A stretch of 22,068 nt of DNA from Myxococcales bacterium (GTDB lineage Bacteria > UBA10199 > 2-02-FULL-44-16 > JAAZCA01). The stretch covers positions 1 through 22,068 of the forward strand of contig JAAZCA010000032.1 in the NCBI GenBank assembly GCA_012513515.1. Direction: 5' to 3'. Below are positions 4,053-20,113 of this stretch, piece by piece. Every line of letters starts with the position of its first letter. Within the stretch, counting starts at the first letter, position 1. The position numbers were made by a program, and so were the translations under genes. The notes under the pieces are model-generated. The model was not told where the DNA came from, did not search any database, and saw only the letters and a program-made list of their open reading frames with translations.

Positions 4053-4574
4053 TCACCCTGATGATTCTTCCTCAAGATCTCCCGATGAAAAAGAAGATAG
4101 GATATCCTTTTGGACTATCTGATAAGCAGCAAGCGAATATTTTGAATCCCGTTCGATATCGGAGGCGAGCTGCTCACCATCTTTTCCGGCAAGATTTATG
4201 AATTCACGCGCACGCAACCCGCTCTCATCGTGATTCACAATCGTAAGATTTTTCCCATCCCCCTTCGGATCCTTCAGATGTATAGTCAGGTGTTTCACTA
4301 TAACGGTATTTTTAAGATTGCTCGTAATCTGGCGCTTAGTTGGCAGCGGCCTCACGTCCTCAGGTGAAACAAACAAGTGATGAATTTCTCCGTTGATCTC
4401 TATCGGCCTCTGGCGGTCTTCGGAGTTCTCCGGACCGATAACTATTTCGTAGTGGCCGTAATTGGCATTCACGCTTATGACATGGACCTCGCCCGGCTTC
4501 ATATCCTTCAGATCCTTGACCACCTCAGCGAGCTGTTTGAAAAAAGGAGCGGTAGGTCGCTTTTTTCTACTCAT
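4053..4574 (-). CDS. protein of unknown function under a sigma-54-like promoter
   Basis: This 173-residue protein is not one I recognise. The start chosen is the ATG at 4574-4572 (MSRKKRPTAPFF), because GAGGGGGGA lies just upstream and because the longer reading frame, which begins at 4631, would start inside a -24/-12 promoter. The N-terminus is basic. The middle alternates beta-type stretches (EVHVISVNANYGHYEIVIG, IEINGEIHHLFVSPEDV, TVIVKHLTIHLKD, KNLTIVNHDESG), suggesting a mostly beta domain. The C-terminus is helical, then Ser/Glu-rich. There is no signal peptide, membrane segment or metal motif. It is monocistronic, between a convergent rubrerythrin gene and aspS. The function is unknown; the promoter suggests expression under a specific activator. 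Confidence 0.75.
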   Translation of the reverse strand: MSRKKRPTAPFFKQLAEVVKDLKDMKPGEVHVISVNANYGHYEIVIGPENSEDRQRPIEINGEIHHLFVSPEDVRPLPTKRQITSNLKNTVIVKHLTIHLKDPKGDGKNLTIVNHDESGLRAREFINLAGKDGEQLASDIERDSKYSLAAYQIVQKDILSSFSSGDLEEESSG

Positions 4575-19617: not shown

Positions 19618-19754
19618 CCTACAACGAGCCTCTTTTGGCGACTTTTTGACATCTTCTCCCAAAGCGATACTCGCGCACAACTTTAGCGTTCCTCTCTAGA
19701 ATTAGCTTTTCTTTGAATAACACCTAATTACCCTTAAATTTTATCGGACCATGG

Positions 19755-19771
19755 CTGGCACGCCTCTTGCT
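19755..19771 (+). promoter_or_regulatory. putative sigma-54 (-24/-12) promoter
   Basis: CTGGCACGCCTCTTGCT matches the RpoN consensus almost perfectly, with GG (19757-19758) and GC (19769-19770) separated by 10 nt. The predicted start is near 19782, just before AGGAGAAGG and the ATG at 19797. A TATAAT (19772-19777) overlaps the downstream side but has no -35 partner, so sigma-70 use is the alternative. Confidence 0.7.
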
Positions 19772-19796
19772 TATAATCACGTTAGGAGAAGGCGAT

Positions 19797-20048
19797 ATGG
19801 CACACAGAGAGGCATTCCAGGAAATGGTCTTCAAGAGGGTGCTAGCGAGCTCCTCTGAGGAGTTCGATCACAGAAATTCGGCGGTTCTCTCATGCGGCGG
19901 AATATACATCCCTCATCGCGGTGACCCCAAGGTAAGGTTGATGAGCATACTCACCACCGCCAGAAAAGATGAACCGGTAAAACTCGTATCTCAGAGCAAA
20001 CCGCGAAACGCCCTTTTCGAAGTTCTTATGAAGGAGAATCTAAACTGA
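19797..20048 (+). CDS. small protein of unknown function behind a sigma-54-like promoter
   Basis: This 83-residue protein begins MAHREAFQEMVFKRVLASSSEEFDHRN. The start ATG 19797 is chosen for the AGGAGAAGG just upstream; the ten residues that the open frame adds before it would be translated from the promoter. It has one N-terminal amphipathic helix, a short SAVLSCGGIYIPH stretch with a single Cys, a basic middle and a C-terminal helix. There is no signal, membrane or known motif, and I do not recognise it. The gene is isolated, with its own promoter and terminators, so it is likely real and separately regulated. Confidence 0.72.
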   Translation: MAHREAFQEMVFKRVLASSSEEFDHRNSAVLSCGGIYIPHRGDPKVRLMSILTTARKDEPVKLVSQSKPRNALFEVLMKENLN

Positions 20049-20058
20049 CGCTCTAGGA

Positions 20059-20079
20059 AGAGCATAATGCTCTCCTTTT
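20059..20079 (+). terminator. hairpin after the small gene, possible terminator
   Basis: AGAGCAT and ATGCTCT pair perfectly around a single A, followed by CCTTTT. The tight loop and short T-run make it a weaker terminator than the hairpin directly downstream. Confidence 0.4.
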
Positions 20080-20084
20080 CCTTG

Positions 20085-20113
20085 AAAATGCCGGCTCACC
20101 GCCGGCATTTTTA
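20085..20113. terminator. strong bidirectional terminator between the small gene and uvrC
   Basis: AAAATGCCGGC and GCCGGCATTTT form an 11-bp perfect stem with a TCACC loop, with T-runs on the plus side and A-runs on the other. It serves both convergent genes. The uvrC stop codon (20111-20113) touches its edge. Confidence 0.88.

Follow-up and report, generated by a model that had tools for sequence, protein, structure and literature searches.

The window analysed here, the whole stretch of 22,068 nucleotides, carries an 83-codon gene that encodes a real, previously undescribed small protein shared by nearly all sequenced members of a single, little-studied bacterial phylum. Taken together, the evidence favors, at better than even chances, a phylum-specific small cytoplasmic protein that is expressed from its own sigma-54 unit and would, as a PilZ derivative blind to c-di-GMP, act as an adaptor or feedback regulator in a sigma-54 cell-surface programme. 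The initial annotation had seen a small, highly regulated cytoplasmic protein here, an idea the present data support, and had called it an orphan, which it is not: the protein belongs to a phylum-wide family with detectable PilZ-domain similarity. The gene and its flanking elements are as follows:

19636–19651 (+): TGGCGACTTTTTGACA, candidate enhancer (UAS), 10/12 against the family dyad, 120 bp upstream of the -24 element
19756–19771 (+): TGGCACGCCTCTTGCT, sigma-54 element, -24 GG at 19757–19758 and -12 GC at 19769–19770, from exact match and conservation
19772–19777 (+): overlapping TATAAT, a perfect hexamer, probably not a working -10
19784–19792 (+): AGGAGAAGG, ribosome-binding site, from the sequence
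19797–20048 (+): 83-aa open reading frame, ATG at 19797, TGA at 20046–20048, 83 codons
~20055–20076 (+): first hairpin with a T-rich tail, terminator-like, from a stem-plus-T-run scan and folding
~20083–20113: second, strong hairpin, located where the 83-aa gene and uvrC converge and contributing to the -30.2 kcal/mol fold

To define the distribution of the family, a profile built from 35 of the small proteins alone was run against 385 genomes, 46 of the phylum and 339 outside it, and recovered the family from every high-quality phylum genome (29/29) and from none of the outside ones (0/339). A 20-member profile gave matches in 39 of the 46 genomes of the class (which represent the whole phylum as sampled), some of the weaker ones being PilZ paralogues. 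Relatives of the 83-aa protein occur at the family, order and class levels, with a single copy in nearly all genomes. Conservation of the reading frame, a check singled out by the initial annotation, is evident both from these phylum-wide orthologues and from the nearest of them, where differences at codon positions 1/2/3 number 28/19/50 and pN/pS is 0.29; on these codon statistics the frame is under purifying selection. In one genome (G028, L147:5948–6949) the small gene is duplicated in tandem, and a separate sigma-54 element precedes each copy. Most of the relatives that have names were deposited as Deltaproteobacteria MAGs.

The -24/-12 element TGGCACGCCTCTTGCT shows 0 mismatches to TGGCAC-N5-TTGCW and is the only exact match to that pattern in the window, while a pattern search of the 1.79-Mb draft genome with the looser TGGCAY-N5-TTGCW returned 17 sites versus 2 for the reversed control pattern. 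Comparison across the family supports the assignment: a GG-N10-GC element lies upstream of 41/41 members examined, mostly 39–46 nt before the start codon, and 37 of these promoters match TGGCAY-N5-TTGCW exactly, the other 4 having a single deviation in the -24 box. By chance, ~0.03 exact sites would be expected across the 41 upstream windows, a figure obtained by multiplying the site density of this genome by 41 windows of 150 nt. The near-perfect sigma-54 promoter of the initial annotation is borne out, and the search for homologs with the same promoter that it had proposed finds the element before every homologue examined. Sigma-54 regulation of the small gene is well supported by this comparison, RpoN dependence itself being a prediction. 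The genome encodes RpoN (E 1.7e-63) along with six strong Sigma54_activat proteins, i.e., enhancer-binding proteins, and RpoN is found in 44 of the 46 phylum genomes. In G034 and G039 (family f20; L156, L182), where no RpoN was found, the small gene has perfect or near-perfect sigma-54 elements and the activator orthologue discussed below is present.

With a transcription start predicted near 19782, the 83-aa gene would have a leader of ~15 nt; a leader or riboswitch reading was rejected, as predicted leaders span ~13–20 nt in most members. The ribosome-binding site AGGAGAAGG stands where the initial annotation had noted a strong one. The perfect TATAAT hexamer overlapping the promoter, which that annotation had flagged as a possible source of RpoN-independent transcription, could suggest that a housekeeping sigma factor mainly drives the gene and that the sigma-54 match is coincidental. 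We find this exceedingly improbable: the promoter scan detected no -35 partner for the hexamer, and relatives retain the -24/-12 element without exception but not the hexamer. On both counts TATAAT is probably not a working -10, and a sigma-70 promoter at this position was rejected.

In most genomes uvrC and mtnA flank the small gene, with gatB, gatA and gatC coming next, and the same locus recurs across orders, including members with only ~20% protein identity; by virtue of this shared place, the uvrC-mtnA family members are orthologues. In both this genome (G000) and its nearest relative (G002), the small gene is inverted relative to its neighbors with its own promoter included, so that, as judged from gene order, it is an autonomous transcription unit. 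Cotranscription with uvrC or mtnA was likewise rejected, since the gene keeps its promoter although its orientation is not the same in all genomes. The unit would end at the two hairpins that the initial annotation had placed after the gene: the region folds with an energy of -30.2 kcal/mol (z -4.9), the stem-plus-T-run scan flags the first hairpin, and the second is a probable bidirectional terminator. A gene with a settled genomic place and a sigma-54 promoter conserved across the depth of a phylum without cultured members directs attention to the core of that phylum’s sigma-54 programme.

To look for activator sites, 36 promoter regions, 220 bp upstream each, were scanned together with dinucleotide-shuffled controls. 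A 16-bp dyad, TGTCAA-N4-TTGACA, is present at a minimum of 10/12 positions and with the same spacer in 18 of the 36 promoters, at -120 to -165 relative to the -24 element; for some orthologues the scan detected none. The mean best dyad score is 9.67 versus 8.46 in the shuffles, where the highest set mean is 8.69. Taken alone, TGGCGACTTTTTGACA is a modest match, as 2/60 shuffles reach its score; its position and spacer agree with those of the orthologous promoters. The FleQ box has been defined as the inverted repeats GTCAAT and ATTGAC with two bases between them (PMC10723142), and the family dyad, written as GTCAA-N4-TTGAC, equals this GTCAAT-N2-ATTGAC consensus.

The candidate activator is a REC-AAA-Fis-HTH protein, the first of three activators in an operon at C18 of this genome (1465–2889). 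It matches FleQ over the full length (E 9.5e-96), with NtrC1-type chains scoring higher over the REC-AAA part, and its recognition helix has RTTLVEK in common with FleQ; an orthologue is found in ~44 of the 46 genomes. From these sequence features, an NtrC/FleQ-type activator with a FleQ-like helix is the likely regulator of the small gene, and we infer, with rather more confidence than doubt, that the protein binding the dyad is this first activator of the C18 operon. The operon order is histidine kinase, three NtrC-type activators, STAS protein and HATPase/SpoIIE phosphatase. In this genome the small gene is not beside it; the gene does occur a few genes behind the triple-activator operon in G015, G030 and G035, three genomes from other families. 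The locus itself (L219:305–7802 in G000) comprises the histidine kinase, the three NtrC-type activators, STAS, HATPase and a GAF-SpoIIE phosphatase, recurs in at least three other genomes, and represents an unusual joining of sigma-54 activation to a partner-switching module. As for the flagellar protein FliG, only a sub-cut-off FliG_C match was detected in this genome and strong matches in 4/46 genomes; because FliG is convincing in so few, flagella are not the likely target.

The protein itself (MAHREAFQ...VLSCGGIYIP...EPVKLVSQ...LMKENLN) is recognized by no Pfam or NCBIfam model. In the 35-member alignment only S32, C33, G34 and G35 are strictly invariant, and a C-terminal K-E-x-[LM]-N is widely kept. 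The LSCGG stretch resembles a lipobox (L-S-C-G), a lipoprotein reading that was rejected because charged or polar residues precede VLSCGG in the aligned members, with no hydrophobic stretch. In a whole-genome profile search, the proteins that follow the family are PilZ-domain proteins with NISCGG, which lack a sigma-54 site, and in hhalign comparisons the family profile scores 96% against the phylum’s SCGG-PilZ and 12% against other PilZ, with 40 column-shuffled controls at or below 2%. When all 5,099 open reading frames of the fetched loci were ranked, the 19 matches next after the family were all PilZ, including PilZ proteins without SCGG; this ranking is not wholly independent, as part of the PilZ set was fetched for matching the family, while the PilZ proteins fetched with the Pfam model are independent. 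The match spans only ~40 residues; the strand order (SCGG, LPN-type, PVKV) follows that of PilZ.

We regard PilZ ancestry of the family as quite probable on these profile comparisons. The alternative, in which the SCGG likeness is convergent and the family represents a lineage-specific fold unrelated to PilZ whose conserved cysteine serves metal, redox or modification chemistry, draws on the invariance of that cysteine in all 35 aligned members and on the failure of direct PilZ detection: the PilZ model PF07238 gives no match at E ≤ 1 for 20 aligned members and none for three divergent members, and fold searches with the AlphaFold models (pLDDT 57, unusable, and 70, middling) returned no significant match and no PilZ in the PDB. 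Profile searches of the PDB gave very weak matches (E 0.4–1.7, in the first alignment only) to ‘Type IV fimbriae assembly protein’ (PilZ) chains. They also gave matches to Protein A, rejected as a chance YEILHLPN match, whose E value of 3e-5 warns that short-motif E-values can mislead and thereby lends the convergent reading further weight. Against it, however, next after the family the ranking lists PilZ proteins alone, some of them without SCGG, three strands occur in matching order, and the column-shuffled controls fail in the profile comparison. We consider convergence unlikely.

PilZ kinds that act independently of c-di-GMP exist, e.g., the type IV pilus PilZ of Xanthomonas (XC1028). Among the aligned members of the present family the SxGG of the c-di-GMP motif is kept, RxxxR is absent before the core, and the D/N position is mostly V or I. 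Relative to PF07238, the family shares the order of SxGG turn, next strand, LPN-type strand and P-V-K-V strand; it differs in being shorter, in lacking RxxxR and the last strands, in the replacement of the D/N of DxSxxG, in escaping the Pfam model, and in always carrying a sigma-54 promoter. It may offer an example of a signalling domain that has apparently shrunk to a small protein.

In the mechanism that we propose, a signal would pass through a histidine kinase or partner-switch module to an NtrC/FleQ-type activator, RpoN polymerase would sit closed at 19756–19771, and the enhancer-binding protein, on the dyad ~120–165 bp upstream, would open it; the resulting mRNA would have a short leader and stop at the hairpins. 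Its product would be a PilZ derivative retaining the SxGG turn and the following strands, and since RxxxR and D/N are lost, this small protein would work through contact with other proteins and not through c-di-GMP binding. Its most likely role, inferred and held at rather less than even confidence, is that of an adaptor or feedback element in a sigma-54 surface programme. Somewhat more broadly, and still tentatively, we suggest a PilZ domain reduced to its c-di-GMP-blind core and placed under a FleQ-like sigma-54 system that in this phylum mostly no longer serves flagella, the outcome being a phylum-defining regulator that would be a new kind of small output or feedback protein for sigma-54.

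The main competing explanation is that the sigma-54 activators themselves, and not a PilZ or pilus pathway, are what the small protein inhibits by feedback or co-regulates. Small partner proteins are known to act on PspF or FleQ, and several genomes have the gene shortly after the operon of histidine kinase, three activators, STAS and HATPase/SpoIIE; together with the activator dyad in its promoter, this arrangement would make a simple autoregulatory loop. In most genomes, however, the gene sits between uvrC and mtnA, away from the activator operon, and we hold direct action on the activators to be rather unlikely. The small gene provides a marker of the phylum with a predicted activator site in common with FleQ, and the purpose of sigma-54 in mostly non-flagellated bacteria becomes a testable question.

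The literature searched contained no paper linking PilZ, sigma 54 and a small protein, and, besides the PilZ domain, three described systems provide partial parallels. The Pseudomonas FleQ system resembles the present one in the dyad, which equals the FleQ box, and in the RTTLVEK of the candidate activator’s HTH; it differs in that the phylum is mostly without convincing flagellar FliG, that the target here is a stand-alone small gene, and that the candidate activator resides in a histidine-kinase operon with two more activators and a STAS/SpoIIE module. In Xanthomonas oryzae, RpoN and FleQ regulate flgZ, an atypical PilZ gene (PMC5550985); this is a likeness in regulation that we draw by description and not as orthology; unlike the small gene, flgZ is a PilZ-domain flagellar gene in an operon and is probably controlled through FliA (PMC5550985). 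Finally, Francke 2011 (PMC3162934) ties sigma-54 to control of the bacterial exterior. Many further sigma-54 sites of this genome stand before genes for lipoproteins and secreted proteins and so fit that view, whereas the conserved target described here is no envelope component but a small protein of the cytoplasm.

Indeed, of the 17 strict sigma-54 sites in this genome (L036–L052), ~9 precede lipoproteins or other secreted proteins. One precedes a small open reading frame and a ComEA-like gene, and two precede REP-type transposases and may be due to chance. A second such promoter in the window, also reported in the initial annotation, is indeed present, 63 nt before a 173-aa open reading frame whose product has no Pfam match, and it too has a candidate FleQ-like dyad:

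4053–4574 (-): 173-aa open reading frame
4637–4622 (-): its sigma-54 promoter element
4768–4753 (-): candidate UAS, a FleQ-like dyad, at -131 of this second promoter

At the window’s start, two adjacent paralogous open reading frames on the reverse strand (3–341 and 338–1078) begin with LLLGRPAAGKSEFID and are P-loop-like.
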